This document shows, piece by piece, positions 22,370-34,162 of a stretch of DNA of 36,770 nt. Source of the stretch: Bacteroidota bacterium (GTDB taxonomy: Bacteria; Bacteroidota; Bacteroidia; J057; JAJTIE01). The translations under genes and the position numbers were made by a program. The notes under the pieces were generated by a model, which was given only the letters and a program-made list of their open reading frames with translations, was not told the origin of the DNA and did not search any database. Location: positions 1 to 36,770 of the forward strand of contig JAHBTG010000022.1 in the NCBI GenBank assembly GCA_019638695.1, read 5' to 3'. The stretch's first letter is position 1, and each line of letters starts with the position of its first letter.

Positions 22370-22454
22370 CTTTTCTTAAAAAATATTTCGGGATCCTCAT
22401 TTGAGGTGTTCATAATTCCTGCGGGCATGTGCAAGATATTGGATCACCCCAACG

Positions 22455-22462
22455 CTATTTTG
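22455..22462 (+). promoter_or_regulatory. -7-like element before the coiled-coil membrane protein
   Basis: CTATTTTG: the 7-mer TATTTTG has one base fewer between TA and TTTG than consensus. Its G is exactly 4 nt before ATG 22467, as at several other genes here. Confidence 0.4.
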
Positions 22463-22466
22463 CACT

Positions 22467-23960
22467 ATGCGACACTACTTTCCGTTGATTTTTTGGCTGA
22501 TGTGCTGGGGATGGCTGTTTGCCCTGCAACCGCTGGCTGCTCAGGGTACAGAACCGCTGGACAGGTTTAAGGATACAGGATCCAAGCTCAAGACCTATGC
22601 GCTGGAGTATAAGGAGATGAGTGATGCAGATGCCGGCAATAAGGGGGCTTCTATTCTCAAGCTCCAGCTGGAAGATGTGGTGACGGCTATGGAAGGATAT
22701 CTTGCCGGTACGCTGGAACGCGATGAAATGGCCAAGACTGCCGCCAGCGCCCTGGCGGAAGCCCGCAAGTACAATACTCCAAAGGCTAAAGAAGTAGCAA
22801 GGCTCCTGACCGGCGTGCAGGCTATGGTCAATGACCTGCCGCCCAAACAGCCGCAGAACAATACGGTGGACACACCGGAAGGAACTGCCGGTGCAGATAC
22901 GGACGAAGGTGCTGCCTTGCAGGTGGATCCCCAGCTAAAACGGAACATTGAGGTCAAGGATGCCGGTACCGGCTTGCTGGAGCGTTATATGGTCTACTTG
23001 CTGTTCGGGCTTTATGTGCTGGCTATTCTCTTGCTGGGGTTTGTGCTGGCAGGCATCTACAAGAAAAGAGTGCGCCACTTGAAGCGCGCGCTTACCGATC
23101 TGGAAGCGCGCATGGAGTTGATGACTGAGCGTAAAGAGAATGGGGGGAATTATACAGACATTGTACAGAAAGACCTGATGAAACGTTGGGAACTCCTGGA
23201 GAACAATACCATTGAGTTCATTGCACGTGTGGAGGAGCAGCTCAAAGACCTGCAAAAAAGCCGTGCGTTAAGCAACAAACACCTGGAAGACCGTATGAGC
23301 CAGGTAGAAGCCCAGTTGAGCCGCCAGGACCAGGGAAGCTCCCCGGTTTCGGTGGCAGCCGAAGCGCCCGTCATAGCCCCTGAAACAAGCGCTCCTGCAG
23401 GTTCGGAGGGCGCTTCTATTTCTCCCCCCCGGCCCCCCGCCGCGTCAGGGCACCAGGCTGCCTGTGCCGCCATCAGCCGCCTGCTCAGGGAACTTCCGCT
23501 CATACCCGGTGTGGAGGAAATGGATACCCTGGCGGCTGACCTCTCTGCCGCTGCTCAGCGCCCGAATCTGAACCTCAATCTCAAACCTCTGGCCGAGGTG
23601 CTGCAGCTCTTGTGGTTGCGTGCACAATTTGAAAAAGTGAGCTGGGATGCTTACCAGCAACTGAAGCAACAAGCGGAATCCCTCAACCTTAGGCTCGAAG
23701 ACCAGATGGCCGGACGCATGAGCTTCTCAGAATTTTATGCCGACAATATTCCCGTCAGCCAGATCAGCCCGGACGGGGAGCCTATGTTCCCGGTTCATGA
23801 GATCTCCAATGAAGAGGTCGTGGTGCGTGCACAGACCAGTACCGCCTCCGCAGATGCCGTTAAAAATACCGTATTGCTCACCCTGTTTCCCACGGTAGTG
23901 CAGTTGCAGGAAGGTGCTAAAACGGTACTGGCCAGGGGATACTACGTAGTTTACGGGTAG
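22467..23960 (+). CDS. Membrane-anchored coiled-coil protein of unknown function
   Basis: 497 residues, no family recognised. Order of parts: signal peptide (1-25, ending PLAAQ), a helical extracytoplasmic part (27-120), an acidic linker, one membrane helix (about 175-197, VYLLFGLYVLAILLLGFVLAG), a charged coiled coil (200-285), a Pro/Ala/Ser linker encoded by C-rich DNA near 23424, and a C-terminal domain (330-497) ending in strands VVQLQEGAKTVLARGYYVVYG. With a cleaved signal the C-terminal part would be cytoplasmic. The layout suggests a scaffold or transmembrane sensor. It ends 6 nt before the convergent HExxH gene. Confidence 0.72.
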   Translation: MRHYFPLIFWLMCWGWLFALQPLAAQGTEPLDRFKDTGSKLKTYALEYKEMSDADAGNKGASILKLQLEDVVTAMEGYLAGTLERDEMAKTAASALAEARKYNTPKAKEVARLLTGVQAMVNDLPPKQPQNNTVDTPEGTAGADTDEGAALQVDPQLKRNIEVKDAGTGLLERYMVYLLFGLYVLAILLLGFVLAGIYKKRVRHLKRALTDLEARMELMTERKENGGNYTDIVQKDLMKRWELLENNTIEFIARVEEQLKDLQKSRALSNKHLEDRMSQVEAQLSRQDQGSSPVSVAAEAPVIAPETSAPAGSEGASISPPRPPAASGHQAACAAISRLLRELPLIPGVEEMDTLAADLSAAAQRPNLNLNLKPLAEVLQLLWLRAQFEKVSWDAYQQLKQQAESLNLRLEDQMAGRMSFSEFYADNIPVSQISPDGEPMFPVHEISNEEVVVRAQTSTASADAVKNTVLLTLFPTVVQLQEGAKTVLARGYYVVYG

Positions 23961-26147: not shown

Positions 26148-27992
26148 ATGCGAATAGTCCAAAGCCTGCTGCTGGCAGGAATCCTGTGCCTGGCTGCCCA
26201 GTCCGGGCGTGCCGAGGTGAAGCTGCGGATGAAGGAAGGGTACAGGGTAGAAAGCCATCTCAACGGGCAGACAGTGTCTTTTACAGACTTCCTGGATGCG
26301 ATGGTGGCAGTGAAAAACCCCACCTTCTTTCGCAATATCAAGATAGTTTTTGATCTGTCTGAGGACAAAAAAGGGATGGATACCCGCTGGGCGAACGGCG
26401 GCCCCCGCCTCCACGTCAGGCATGATGTGTTCCTCTATGACTGTGAGTTTGACCGCGAGTTCTGGCTGGTAGCCCGGGATCTCACTTTTCATGGCCTCTT
26501 CAGCTTCTACAACTGCAAGAACCTGAAAGGGGTGTTCAAAGGTTGCGAGTTCAGAAACAGTGTGCGCTGCTTTGGCAATGAGTTTGAGTTTATGGACTTT
26601 GAGGACTGCCAGTTTCGTCATGGGTTCAAATGGGGCAGGGGGTTTATGATGGACCACCTGAAGTTTAGCCACTGCCAGTTTAGCGTGGACCCCGAGCTGC
26701 TTCCCAACAGCTATGGCCCGGATATGGAGGGCCGCACCTTGCTGGTGAATAACAAGCTGGAAGAGTTTGACCTGACGCTGGACCATTGTGTCTTTAAGGT
26801 GCCCGACAGCCTGGCTGCGCACAGCCAGTATTTTGCCACCATGAACCACACGCAGTTCAGCAATCTGCGCATTATGCACTGCGATTTTCATACCGGCGTC
26901 AATATTACCCAGAGCTCCATCAGCAATCTTTTCCAGTCCTATGGCTGCCATTACCGGCAGTCGGTAGTCATTGATGCGCTGAACCTGAACCCCGTTAATA
27001 CCAAGGTGGACTGGCTGAGCCTGGACAACTACCGGCTGGCTGTCTTTCACCATGACAGCGACAGCCTGGTGAGCGGCCTGCAGCCTCATTTGCTGAACGA
27101 CCCCCGCACGGTGAATACCCTCATCAGCTGCTATGCCAATCTCTACCAGGCATTTCGCACACAGGGCAACCGCCTGGCTGCCAATGCCTGCTATGTAGAA
27201 TGGAAGAACCTGGAGACGGTTTACCTGCGCAATCTTTCCTACACCAGCGTGGAGGGTTCTCCCTATTTCCTCTACCTCATGAACATCTTCCTGAGAGAGT
27301 TCTGCGACTATGGTACTAATCCCCTGAAGTCTTTACTGATATCGGCTTATGTGTTGCTGGCCTTTGCAGCAGTATATTTCCTGTATCCCTGGCAGATAGG
27401 AGAGCCGGACAGGGGGTTCTACCGGCAGATGCTGCTCTTTGCGCAGTACTTTACCCGCCCGGGCAGGCTGGCACAGATGCCTGCACCCGGCGGCACAGAC
27501 TGGGCGCTGGAAGGCAATGGCAGTGGCTGGCAGGCGGCCAATTCCGCTTCGCGGGATCTTGCCGCGGCCTCCCAGGGCACTATGGCAGATGCCTATAAGC
27601 AGTTTGTGCAGACCCAGCCCTCAAAGGCTATGCCTTTCTACTTCCGCCTGATTGGCAAATACCGGCTGAGGACCAACCTGTATACCCGCTTTCAGCAGAT
27701 GCTGCTGCGTACGATAGACTGGTTGCCCCGCCAGTGGCAACACTATAGCCCGTTTCGCCGCTTTATCTATGCCACTTTCTATGGCTTGCTTATTCTGACC
27801 CTGCTGCTTAGCTACCTGTTCGTGCGGGTGCTGGATGCCACTGCACTCAGCCTTAATGTATTCAGTACGCTGGGATTCGGGCAGATCCCTATCTACGGCG
27901 TACCCCGTTACCTTACGATATTGGAAGGGTTCATCGGCTGGTTCCTGCTGAGCATTTTCAGTGTATCGCTCATCAGCCAGGTGATTCAGTAA
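26148..27992 (+). CDS. Secreted beta-helix domain fused to a K+-channel-like pore
   Basis: 614 residues. The signal peptide (MRIVQSLLLAGILCLAAQSGRA) is followed by about 270 residues of short repeating 'DCxF / NCxF' strands (LYDCEFDREFW, FYNCKNLKGVFKGCEF, FEDCQFRHGF, LDHCVF), as in beta-helix or pentapeptide-like sheets. A helical stretch leads to membrane helix 1 (about 395-417), a basic 120-residue loop, helix 2 (542-565), a pore loop with STLGFGQIP (573-581) and helix 3 (590-612), where the protein ends. TLGFGQ resembles the K+ filter TVGYGD and the GFG form of hERG-type channels. With a cleaved signal the filter faces outward, as in real channels. Function (gated ion channel with an external sensor) is inferred. 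Confidence 0.72.
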   Translation: MRIVQSLLLAGILCLAAQSGRAEVKLRMKEGYRVESHLNGQTVSFTDFLDAMVAVKNPTFFRNIKIVFDLSEDKKGMDTRWANGGPRLHVRHDVFLYDCEFDREFWLVARDLTFHGLFSFYNCKNLKGVFKGCEFRNSVRCFGNEFEFMDFEDCQFRHGFKWGRGFMMDHLKFSHCQFSVDPELLPNSYGPDMEGRTLLVNNKLEEFDLTLDHCVFKVPDSLAAHSQYFATMNHTQFSNLRIMHCDFHTGVNITQSSISNLFQSYGCHYRQSVVIDALNLNPVNTKVDWLSLDNYRLAVFHHDSDSLVSGLQPHLLNDPRTVNTLISCYANLYQAFRTQGNRLAANACYVEWKNLETVYLRNLSYTSVEGSPYFLYLMNIFLREFCDYGTNPLKSLLISAYVLLAFAAVYFLYPWQIGEPDRGFYRQMLLFAQYFTRPGRLAQMPAPGGTDWALEGNGSGWQAANSASRDLAAASQGTMADAYKQFVQTQPSKAMPFYFRLIGKYRLRTNLYTRFQQMLLRTIDWLPRQWQHYSPFRRFIYATFYGLLILTLLLSYLFVRVLDATALSLNVFSTLGFGQIPIYGVPRYLTILEGFIGWFLLSIFSVSLISQVIQ

Positions 27993-27996
27993 TGCG

Positions 27997-29481
27997 TTAC
28001 CGCGTACTGGATTCCAGTGTTTTGATGCGTCCGTCCAGCCAGCCGGTGAAGTTGTAATAGCGGGTAGCTTTTTGTTCAAACTGCTCACTCTTGAGCAGCT
28101 CTATCTGGTCTCTCAGTTTGCGGAGCAGCTCTATCAGTTTGGGGCGTGTCTTGGCCTTGGGTAGCTGGCGGATAAAGTCCATAATAAGGCTTTCCAGCTT
28201 GTAGATACGCTTGCGCTTTTTGAGAAAGCGGTAGGTGCTTTTGATGCGATAATCCAGCGTATCCCATTCCTGGGCATCATACAGGATCAGCAGTTCCAGT
28301 ATCTGGGCAAACACATAGATATCATCCCGCACCTGCTTGGGATTTTTCTGAAGGATGGCCTTGATATAGTGCCGCGCGATGCCGCTGTCATGCAGGTCAA
28401 AGTGTATGATGGCAAAGTTGTAATAAAACACATCCTTGGCCAGCGGATCCACCTTGCCGTGTTCCAGCAGGTCTATAATGGTGGGGATCATATCCCGTGC
28501 TTTTTCCAGCTGCCGCTGGTCTTCGTAAATAATGAACTGGTAATTATACAGCAGCTGGTAATACTGGCTTCTGCGGGCCTGGGGAAGGTCTTCTATCAGC
28601 TGGCTGTTTTGTATCTTGGAGATAAGCTTTTGTGCAGATTCCAGGTGGCCGCGCCAGTACTTTACCCGCACCCAGGAGAGCATGGCCGTGAGGTAATCTT
28701 CCAGGTATACGGTCTTCAGGAACAGGTGCCGGTTAGAGATCAGATCCAGTTTGTAATACTCGGCCTCTGCCCGGTCCATTTCGTCATTATAGAAGAAGGT
28801 AAGCCCGCGGATCACATGATACAGGCACTGGGCACGCAGGGAATGGGGTTTTACCTCGTCATGTACCAGTTCATTATCCAGGGTGATCTTGTGACTTTCT
28901 TCCCGGCTGAAATAGTCCCGGCGAAAGCGCAGCAGCACCTCTTCCTCCAGCAGCATGTATTCATACAGGTTGCGCAGTTTATTGGCTACCTCCTGTTGTT
29001 CGTCATATACCTGCCGCAGAGCCGGTATCTGTTTATCCAGCTCATAGCTATTGACAATCAGCTTATGCTGCCAGCGCAGCAGCTCCAGCAGCATCTCCAG
29101 GCGTTCTACCTTTTGGGCCTGCTTTTTGGCCTGAATAATGATCTTATCTGCACGGTCATAGAACCCCCTTGCATACAGTGCTTCTACATCCTGTATCGCA
29201 TCTGTAAGCAGGGCGTTGATGGAGTTCTTGCGGTCGTATTGTTTGATGAGCGCGAGTACCCTTTCTTCCAGGTAGCGGGTAATCCGCAGGAATCCGGGGT
29301 AGTTGTCCCGGTACCCCAGGTCATCCCTGGCCTGGTCTGCATCTACAGGAAAGGGGGTGCGCATAAGGTACTGAAATAACTGGCCATTGACACTGTTGGG
29401 CTTGATGAAGCTGGAGATATAGCGCTTCTCACTTCCCGTTAGTGAATGGATAAGTTCATGTATTTCAGTTAGCGGCTTCAA
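27997..29481 (-). CDS. All-helical TPR-like protein of unknown function
   Basis: 494 residues starting at TTG 29481 (MKPLTEIHELIHSL). No in-frame ATG lies between the upstream TAA and the conserved-looking N-terminus, and the nearby ATG is out of frame. The protein is helical throughout, with repeating A/Y/L patterns like tetratricopeptide repeats (YARGFYDRADKIIIQAKKQAQ, FYYNFAIIHFDLHDSGIARHY as examples, each cut short). It has a basic C-terminus and no signal peptide or membrane span. It is probably a cytoplasmic scaffold. Large proteins of this look recur in Bacteroidota without a named role. It is convergent with the channel-like gene, 4 nt apart. Confidence 0.78.
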   Translation of the reverse strand: MKPLTEIHELIHSLTGSEKRYISSFIKPNSVNGQLFQYLMRTPFPVDADQARDDLGYRDNYPGFLRITRYLEERVLALIKQYDRKNSINALLTDAIQDVEALYARGFYDRADKIIIQAKKQAQKVERLEMLLELLRWQHKLIVNSYELDKQIPALRQVYDEQQEVANKLRNLYEYMLLEEEVLLRFRRDYFSREESHKITLDNELVHDEVKPHSLRAQCLYHVIRGLTFFYNDEMDRAEAEYYKLDLISNRHLFLKTVYLEDYLTAMLSWVRVKYWRGHLESAQKLISKIQNSQLIEDLPQARRSQYYQLLYNYQFIIYEDQRQLEKARDMIPTIIDLLEHGKVDPLAKDVFYYNFAIIHFDLHDSGIARHYIKAILQKNPKQVRDDIYVFAQILELLILYDAQEWDTLDYRIKSTYRFLKKRKRIYKLESLIMDFIRQLPKAKTRPKLIELLRKLRDQIELLKSEQFEQKATRYYNFTGWLDGRIKTLESSTR

Positions 29482-31363: not shown

Positions 31364-34162
31364 ATGAAGAAGACCCTACTGTTTGCTTGCTCTCTGCTCA
31401 CCTTCAGAAGCCGAATGGCTCCGCTCAAAAGCCTGTCTTACCGCGGCCTTTTCACCGGTATGGCGGTCATCACTTTGCTGCTGCTGGCAACAGGTATGCT
31501 GCAGGCACAGCTCTACATTAGCCAGTTGAACGACCCTAATACGGGTTGGCAAACGGAGAGGTCCGTAACGCTTACCAACTCCGGGTCTGCCTCGCTTACT
31601 ATGAATGGCTGGGTGTTTGAGATCACCGCCAATCTGAGCGCCGGAGGCACCTGTACTGCATTCATTCCGCTGCCAAGTGGTACCCTGGGTGCCAGTCGGA
31701 CCATTACCATACACATTAATGACTGGGGTGGAGCCAATACCGACTTCAGCAATGCCGGTATCAATCACCATTATCGGGCCACCAATTGGTCTGGTAACTG
31801 CTTCACCAACTGGAATGGCCTGGGGCATACCCAGGGCGATGGCGCCAGGTTGCACTATGATTGTCCTAGCCCCACGGGTCGTGTGCTGGTTCAGAGTGAA
31901 ACCACCACCAATTTTGAGAACAAGACAGTTACCATAAGCAACAATTCCACCCCGCCTTCCTGCCTTTCCTGCACAGCTACCACGCCGGCCAGCACACTGT
32001 CCGGTGGGGGCTCTTTCTGTGCTGCTTCCGCTACACTGAGCCGCACAAGTGCCCCAAGCGGTACGACTACCTGGTATTGGCAGAGCAGTACCACCGGCAC
32101 TAGTACGGCAAATTCCGGCAGCACTTTCAATGCCACTGCCAGTGGTACCTATTACCTGCGCGCCTATAATAGTGCGGGTGGAGGTTGCTGGAGTACCGCT
32201 ACTGCCGGCGTGAGTGTTACTCTGAATAGTGTACCTGCTGCCACTTCCGTATCCGGCGGTGGCACCGTTTGCGGCACCAGTACCACCCTTACCGCCAGCG
32301 GCGGTAGCGGCGGCACGATCTACTTCCAGGGTACCACCAGCGGCGGCACCAGTACGGCCACACCCGGAGCCTCTCAGCTGGTTTCTGCCAACGGCACCTA
32401 CTATTTCCGCAGCCGCTCTGCAGCAGGCTGCTGGGGGCCGGAAGGCAGCGTAAGCGTAACCTTTAGCACCCCGCCTGCTGCCGATGCAGGGCCCGCAATG
32501 GCCATTACCTGCACGGACAGGTATACACTGAGTGGTAGCACCCTGGGTGCCGGACAAACCGGCCTGTGGACAGGCAGTGCTGTGACGGGTGGTGGCAGTG
32601 TGAGTTTTGATGATGCCGCATCTCCCACTGCAGAAGCTACGTTTACTGCCCCCGGCCTATACCAGCTCACCTGGACAGTGAGCGCCGGCGGGTGCACACC
32701 CAGTGCAGACCAGATCATAGTGGGTAGCCTGAAAGATGGGGATCCCGGCTACTGGACCGGGCTTGCCGCAACAGTAGGCGGCAATGGCGAGGACTGGAAT
32801 GATTGCCGCAACTGGGCAGACGGGGTGGTGCCTACATCCGGTACCGTGATCCTGACGGATGTGCGGCCCGCTTACCTGGGGGGTACAGCCGTAACTGCTT
32901 TGCCGCAGAATATCCCTGCAGTTACCTTGAATACGCTTGTGATGGATAACCCCCAGGCCGGTGGCGCTGCGCTGGCCAATGGCGCCCAGGTCACCCTGAC
33001 CGGTACGCTCAAGCTGGCGCGCGGCTGGATCGTGACCCCCACCAATGCCTGGATATATGTAGATAACGGCGCCGTTGCCGCCATTACCGATGCCGGCAAT
33101 GCTGCAGTTGCCTATAGCAACACCGCTTACGTGCGGGGAACGCTGCGCCGCCGGATAACCGGTGCGGATGCTTATGCGTTTCCTGTGGGAGATGCGCAGA
33201 GCCGCTTTGTAAACTATGTTCAGAACAGTGTGCCCGCAGGGGGCAGCTATACGGAAGTACGCTTCAATGCCGGGGTGATCCCTGCCGGCTTAGGCGCTTT
33301 CCTGCCCTATGAGGATCATAATGCCAGCTTTGCAGATGTCATGTCTGACGGCAGCTGGGAGGTCCTGAGCAACCAGGTGAGTACAGATTATAGCCTGGAA
33401 GCGTTTCCCGGCGCCGCTAATCTCAACTTCTGCGGGGGCGCACCCTGCATGGCCTACACACTGGCTAAAAAGAGCGGGGGTACCTGGTCCAACGGCAGCA
33501 GCAGCCCTGCGTTGTTCCAGGGCGCTACGCCTACCACCTTCAAGGGCTTGTCTGCCCAGAACAGTGTGCGGCGTAACGGCTATACTACTTTCTCCGAGAT
33601 CGTGATAGTGGGTAGCCCTGCCTTGCCCATGCCTATTGAGCAGCTGCAACTGAATGGTGACTGGCAGGGCGCAGTGCCTCTGCTTACCTGGGTAAGCGTG
33701 CAGGAGCAGGCCACCGAAACCTGTGTGCTGGAGCGCAGTGCCAATGGCCGGGACTTTACGGAGATCCACCGTATGGCCGCACAAGGTTATCATCCGGACG
33801 CCTACCGTTACCGGGCAGAAGACCATGCCCCGCTTTCGGAGGCTTATTACCGGGTTTATATACAGGACCTGAGTGGCGCTCGCCACTATAGCAACACAGT
33901 ACTGCTGGTCCGCGGACAGGAGCCGGAAGCCTATACGCTGCGTGCTTATCCCAATCCTGCGAGCAATACCCTGGCGGTTACCTTACCCGCGCATGTTAGT
34001 AGGGTCACGCTGTATAATACGCTGGGACAGGCTGTGCATGATAAGGTTACCCAGGGCGAGACGCATAGCGTGCTGGATATACAGCACCTGGCCGGCGGGG
34101 CCTATACACTGGTGGTGCAGGACGGCACGCAGCGCCATACGCTGCGCGTGATCAAGCAATAG
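31364..34162 (+). CDS. Large secreted protein with Ig-like repeats and a T9SS sorting domain
   Basis: 932 residues from ATG 31364 (MKKTLLFACSLLTF). An internal ATG at 31415 (MAPLKSLSYRGLF) gives a more ordinary signal peptide ending LQAQ, so the start is uncertain. Order: an N-terminal beta domain of unknown type (GWVFEITANLSAGGTC, about 50-190), two Ig-like SprB-type repeats rich in Gly/Ser/Thr (FCAASATLSRTS and VCGTSTTLTASGG), a PKD-like unit, a GNGEDWNDCRNWADGVVPTS module common in Bacteroidota surface proteins, a beta-rich region, and a T9SS type A domain (LRAYPNPASNTLAVTLP). It should pass T9SS with help of PorQ and act as an adhesin-like surface or released protein. Its stop overlaps dapF by 11 nt. 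Confidence 0.85.
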   Translation: MKKTLLFACSLLTFRSRMAPLKSLSYRGLFTGMAVITLLLLATGMLQAQLYISQLNDPNTGWQTERSVTLTNSGSASLTMNGWVFEITANLSAGGTCTAFIPLPSGTLGASRTITIHINDWGGANTDFSNAGINHHYRATNWSGNCFTNWNGLGHTQGDGARLHYDCPSPTGRVLVQSETTTNFENKTVTISNNSTPPSCLSCTATTPASTLSGGGSFCAASATLSRTSAPSGTTTWYWQSSTTGTSTANSGSTFNATASGTYYLRAYNSAGGGCWSTATAGVSVTLNSVPAATSVSGGGTVCGTSTTLTASGGSGGTIYFQGTTSGGTSTATPGASQLVSANGTYYFRSRSAAGCWGPEGSVSVTFSTPPAADAGPAMAITCTDRYTLSGSTLGAGQTGLWTGSAVTGGGSVSFDDAASPTAEATFTAPGLYQLTWTVSAGGCTPSADQIIVGSLKDGDPGYWTGLAATVGGNGEDWNDCRNWADGVVPTSGTVILTDVRPAYLGGTAVTALPQNIPAVTLNTLVMDNPQAGGAALANGAQVTLTGTLKLARGWIVTPTNAWIYVDNGAVAAITDAGNAAVAYSNTAYVRGTLRRRITGADAYAFPVGDAQSRFVNYVQNSVPAGGSYTEVRFNAGVIPAGLGAFLPYEDHNASFADVMSDGSWEVLSNQVSTDYSLEAFPGAANLNFCGGAPCMAYTLAKKSGGTWSNGSSSPALFQGATPTTFKGLSAQNSVRRNGYTTFSEIVIVGSPALPMPIEQLQLNGDWQGAVPLLTWVSVQEQATETCVLERSANGRDFTEIHRMAAQGYHPDAYRYRAEDHAPLSEAYYRVYIQDLSGARHYSNTVLLVRGQEPEAYTLRAYPNPASNTLAVTLPAHVSRVTLYNTLGQAVHDKVTQGETHSVLDIQHLAGGAYTLVVQDGTQRHTLRVIKQ

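Follow-up and report, generated by a model that had tools for sequence, protein, structure and literature searches.

A Bacteroidota gene for a putative K+-type channel subunit with a signal peptide and a predicted periplasmic beta-helix

The stretch of DNA analysed here (the window: 36,770 nucleotides, positions 1 to 36,770 of contig JAHBTG010000022.1 from the Bacteroidota bacterium assembly GCA_019638695.1) carries a gene whose product is probably an inner-membrane K+-type channel subunit, presumably tetrameric, with a large N-terminal beta-helix in the periplasm and with the topology and gating set out below. The computed part of this description comprises a signal peptide, a beta-helix, a helical hairpin, a pore module and the homology of both C-terminal halves to signal-free pentapeptide K+-type channels (Table 1). 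The reading frame starts at the first in-frame ATG past an upstream stop and closes with TAA, and it is not a chance open reading frame, since 22 intact relatives were gathered from Bacteroidota and Ignavibacteria, giving a family of 23 members with the window protein.

Table 1. Features of the channel gene, in window coordinates.
Feature	Position	Strand	Evidence
Gene for a 614-residue protein, predicted secreted-beta-helix K+-type channel	26148..27992	+	Open reading frame; full-length relatives at 31-41% identity
Signal peptide, residues 1-22	26148..26213	+	Sequence; cleavage after GRA, called by eye
Beta-helix, predicted extracytoplasmic, residues 36-310	26253..27077	+	AlphaFold2, Foldseek, VIA-align
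Helical hairpin, residues 319-366	27102..27245	+	AlphaFold2 model; same element matched in signal-free channels
DYGTNP motif, residues 387-392 (family YGxxP element preceding TM1)	27306..27323	+	Conservation, alignment
TM1, residues 393-416	27324..27395	+	Hydropathy 2.06; hhalign P=3.3e-10 against TM1 of signal-free channels
Loop of about 120 residues, 417-535, predicted cytoplasmic, part of the insert	27396..27752	+	Charge count; not in signal-free relatives
TM2, residues 536-560, extra helix, predicted outer pore helix	27753..27827	+	Hydropathy 2.1; no signal-free counterpart
Pore helix and selectivity filter, residues 561-582	27828..27893	+	Kept in 23/23 members; hhalign P=2.3e-10
TLGFG, residues 574-578	27867-27881	+	Within the predicted filter
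TM3, predicted inner pore helix, residues 590-614	27915..27989	+	C-terminal end (SQVIQ); most conserved region

A sequence-only reading of this DNA had proposed a signal peptide followed by about 270 residues of Cys/Phe-repeat beta-helix, and each element of that proposal was recovered. The signal peptide and its cleavage site read MRIVQSLLLAGILCLAAQSGRA/EV, and the hydropathy of the N-terminal 12-mer is 2.5 in the window protein and at least 2.24 in all 23 members, as against at most 1.18 in nine signal-free relatives. In the full-length AlphaFold2 monomer model, beta-helix strands run through about residues 42-310 with pLDDT mostly 70-95, and CxF repeats occur within this domain at residues 99, 133, 154, 176, 214 and 245 (six in residues 86-285 against 1.0 expected by shuffling, p about 1.5e-4). 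Comparison of the model by VIA-align matched beta-helices at Z about 13-15, among them surface adhesins and polysaccharide-active proteins; its list, from which K+ channels are absent, is filled by beta-helices and has no bearing on the pore. Foldseek with the full model returned HalA as the best match (E 2e-3, probability 0.95, but with low TM-scores of 0.15/0.24 and with the model pore unresolved) and the pentapeptide protein QnrB1 as the next. The window protein has no Pfam pentapeptide match, and Pentapeptide_3 was matched weakly in 5 of 12 members, with L003 alone above the cut-off (28.2 versus 27 bits).

Full-length relatives share about 40% identity with the window protein in Ignavibacteria and 31% in a Flavobacteriales metagenome-assembled genome. 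A search of 59 further genomes around that of the window found additional relatives in five, one of which has a broken copy only, and across the phylum a minority of genomes has a relative. Every one of the 23 members has a signal-peptide-like hydrophobic N-terminus, TM1, a G-[F/Y]-G motif and TM3, and the filter is kept throughout as [ST][LF]G[FY]G; conservation of GFG among homologues had been named earlier as a check, and no member lacks the motif. The distance from the filter to the C-terminus is likewise constant, being exactly 36 residues in 21 members and 37 in the other two, and Y388, G389 and T390 of the DYGTNP motif are conserved across the family. Mean weighted residue frequency over the 23 members rises from 0.26 in the loop, 0.31 in TM2 and 0.34 in the beta-helix to 0.68 in the pore helix and filter and 0.84 in TM3. 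Furthermore, pN/pS among five Ignavibacteria relatives was 0.01-0.05 in the pore versus 0.10-0.28 elsewhere, indicating strong purifying selection. Some genomes hold two or three channel paralogues (L024, L036 and L039 in G337; L025 and L037 in G329). A broken family copy with stops was also seen (L005, L111-L113; G003:C43:7699-8455), and G009, of the same genus, has an intact one.

Three hydrophobic helices lie at about residues 395, 544 and 595 of the window protein, and the T-x-G-[YF]-G signature is present between two membrane helices as TLGFG. Thus, the three membrane helices with a pore-loop motif between the last two, and the end of the protein right after the last helix with no RCK domain, stand as originally described, TM3 being the C-terminus; that description captured helices and filter and left out the hairpin, the long TM1-TM2 loop and the conserved family. 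A profile search against ion-channel families, also suggested at that stage, gave a divided result: the window protein alone scored 14.9 bits against Pfam PF07885 (Ion_trans_2), under the gathering score of 22.5, whereas three relatives exceeded that cut-off (L020, 36.4; L002, 26.1; L003, 26.0). NaK variants were the nearest channels in the PDB both for the family profile (E about 2, which is not significant by itself) and for L003 alone (E 0.08), and the signal-free channel L035 matched TREK, NaK and KcsA at E 7e-5 to 3e-3. The link of the window family to K+ channels is firmer because signal-free channels of this kind, mostly with pentapeptide repeats and drawn from Bacteroidota genomes and plasmids, act as intermediates. 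Alignment by hhalign of the 23-member family with nine signal-free proteins gave P 1.4e-11 for the hairpin and TM1, P 2.3e-10 for the pore loop and last helix, and 2e-16 for both combined, and the YGxxP element of the family was aligned with the YGExP of the signal-free channels. As to the structural models, pLDDT is mostly below 50 over the pore in the full-length monomer model, a second AlphaFold2 model (residues 311-614) left the pore unresolved, a re-entrant loop was seen in neither, and Foldseek with the C-terminal model found no channel match. Homology supports a K+-channel-type pore in the window protein, for which K+ selectivity and tetrameric assembly would be expected. The two-helix channels NaK and KcsA share with it a pore helix, a T-x-G-[YF]-G filter and an inner helix but, unlike the window protein, have neither an extracytoplasmic domain nor a third helix.

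The orientation of the pore may be approached through the same intermediates. Signal-free pentapeptide-repeat K+ channel family proteins of archaea and bacteria (L091, L093, L094 and L096 among others) resemble the window family in their hairpin, YGxxP-TM1 element, TLGYG pore and C-terminus right past the inner helix, and differ from it in having an N-terminus without signal peptide and no insert. In the window family, an insert bearing the extra TM2 parts the hairpin-TM1 block from the pore block; the distance from TM1 to the filter is about 130-140 residues, with a strong extra helix, in the long secreted members, as opposed to 19-45 residues and no convincing extra helix in the signal-free relatives. 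A single branch, with 100/100 support, parts the secreted from the signal-free group in a tree for which no root was inferred. A signal-free start inside followed by two helices places the filter outside, as does a signal-peptide start outside followed by three; helix parity thus fits the start side in both groups. On this sequence evidence, the TM1 of the window family, whose homologue in the signal-free group is the outer pore helix, would run the opposite way, and TM2 would replace it as outer helix. The earlier placement of the beta-helix in the periplasm with the filter facing outward is thus supported by homology, the signal peptide and helix parity. The count of charges flanking TM1 by the positive-inside rule was not decisive. 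In the short members L004, L006 and L028, the stretch from TM1 to the filter is shortened and TM2 is weak or short, so their topology is less sure and may differ.

A rival to this orientation is a pore inverted as in GluR0-type receptors, with the beta-helix outside, the P-loop entering from the cytoplasm after TM1, TM3 exiting to the periplasm and TM2 not a membrane helix at all. In favour of such an arrangement are the homology of TM1 with the outer pore helix that signal-free channels have and the weak TM2 of the three short members; we nevertheless regard it as unlikely, given the marked hydrophobicity of TM2 in the window protein and in most of the family, and given that the loop before it (residues 415-537) is net positive, with 15 K+R versus 7 D+E, as an inside location predicts. 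It is also quite improbable that the protein is a membrane-anchored adhesin, or another envelope protein, with a channel-like part that has ceased to conduct: its beta-helix does resemble those of surface adhesins and polysaccharide-active proteins, but constraint within the protein is strongest in the filter and inner helix, needless for a mere anchor.

HalA (PDB 9nyi) is the channel of the Hailong anti-phage system, said to have been described by Tan et al. in Nature in 2025 (doi 10.1038/s41586-025-09058-z). It is reportedly a DNA-gated anti-phage channel that is shut by binding of oligodeoxyadenylate, its partner is the nucleotidyltransferase HalB, and its sensor domain is presumably on the cytoplasmic side. 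HalA has, in the order predicted for the window protein, a beta-helix, helices and a K+-type pore with no C-terminal regulatory domain, it heads the Foldseek matches of the window model (with the low TM-scores given above), L003 matches the HalA model weakly over the beta-helix, and a HalA-like protein belongs to the group with which the C-terminal parts of the window protein share homology. That the window protein is itself the Hailong effector is very improbable all the same. It matched neither the NCBIfam HalA model (NF051894, cut-off 250 bits) nor any other NCBIfam model, and L003, the best among the relatives, reached 24.7 of 250 bits; the HalA model found nothing above its cut-off over 198 genomes of the phylum, the matches listed being short and in the pentapeptide part. 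HalB had no match in the window's genome and none over the cut-off in 11 related genomes, PADLOC gave no match for the window protein, the neighbours of its gene are an EamA transporter, a deaminase and PSP1, and the signal peptide takes the domain away from cytoplasmic nucleotides. The HalA-like protein, L092, is encoded on a Priestia megaterium plasmid (NZ_CP065336.1; L092:1450-3053), where the gene for this pentapeptide K+-type channel overlaps a following nucleotidyltransferase gene. The channel matched the HalA model at E 3e-10 and the nucleotidyltransferase the HalB model at E 9e-12, both below the curated cut-offs; the pair is perhaps a divergent Hailong system, and L092 is treated here as HalA-like rather than as a proven HalA. 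Its group has a homologous hairpin, TM1 and pore; L092 itself has two pore helices and no signal peptide, in contrast to the window protein with its signal peptide and additional helix.

Under the preferred reading, that of an outward-facing sensor on a non-inverted K+-type pore, the signal peptide would export the beta-helix and hairpin, TM1 would cross from outside to inside, the 417-535 loop would be cytoplasmic and TM2 would return outward as the outer pore helix. The TLGFG loop would then face the periplasm, and TM3, as inner helix, would end at a cytoplasmic gate. As no cytoplasmic domain follows TM3, the loop would be the sole sizeable predicted cytoplasmic part. By analogy with HalA, the outer beta-helix probably binds a ligand, for which glycans, peptidoglycan fragments, ions and partner proteins are candidates; the signal would be relayed through the hairpin and TM1 to open or shut the pore, and ligand gating by the beta-helix is plausible on that ground. 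Were the outer beta-helix to set the state of the pore, K+ flux would report on the envelope or surroundings, and the window protein may accordingly be a channel that reads cell-envelope signals.

Sensors of known prokaryotic K+ channels are mostly cytoplasmic. We tentatively propose, as a possibility somewhat short of an even chance, that these proteins form a family of K+ channels in which a periplasmic beta-helix gates a non-inverted pore from the outside; the family would descend from HalA-like channels with cytoplasmic sensors, or have a common ancestor with them, and would have gained a signal peptide together with a membrane helix that compensates for it. If true, a flip in topology would have been offset by one added helix, an outward sensor without pore inversion would represent a second design, besides GluR0-type receptors, for a channel sensing the envelope or surroundings, and HalA would belong to a wider family with roles outside phage defence. 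A periplasmic sensor on a K+-type pore had initially been called unusual, which needs qualifying, as GluR0-type receptors already join a large extracytoplasmic sensor to a K+-type pore (PMC2950845) and a beta-helix on such a pore is known from HalA. What is unusual is the combination of a beta-helix predicted to face outward and a pore that is not inverted, an arrangement that would differ from the HalA-like plan by the signal peptide and one extra helix. GluR0-type channels, moreover, lack a beta-helix, and their glutamate-binding domain is interrupted by the pore helices, whereas the extracytoplasmic domain of the window protein is a beta-helix, with no Pfam match to a periplasmic glutamate-binding (solute-binding) domain. 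Apart from mentions of Hailong, literature searches turned up no paper about a K+ channel with pentapeptide repeats or a beta-helix.

A defence island or operon partner was rejected, the neighbouring genes being unrelated and different between the window and Ignavibacteria. A plasmid search with the window protein returned no match, and a match of L004 to the Stx2f model (14.1 of 715 bits) was taken as chance. Among the other genes of the window, two long reading frames, 28000-29481 (-) and 22416-23957 (+), have no Pfam match at E 0.001, and a third, 31364-33997 (+), contains an Ig_7 (CHU_C-associated) domain and is probably a secreted Bacteroidota surface protein.
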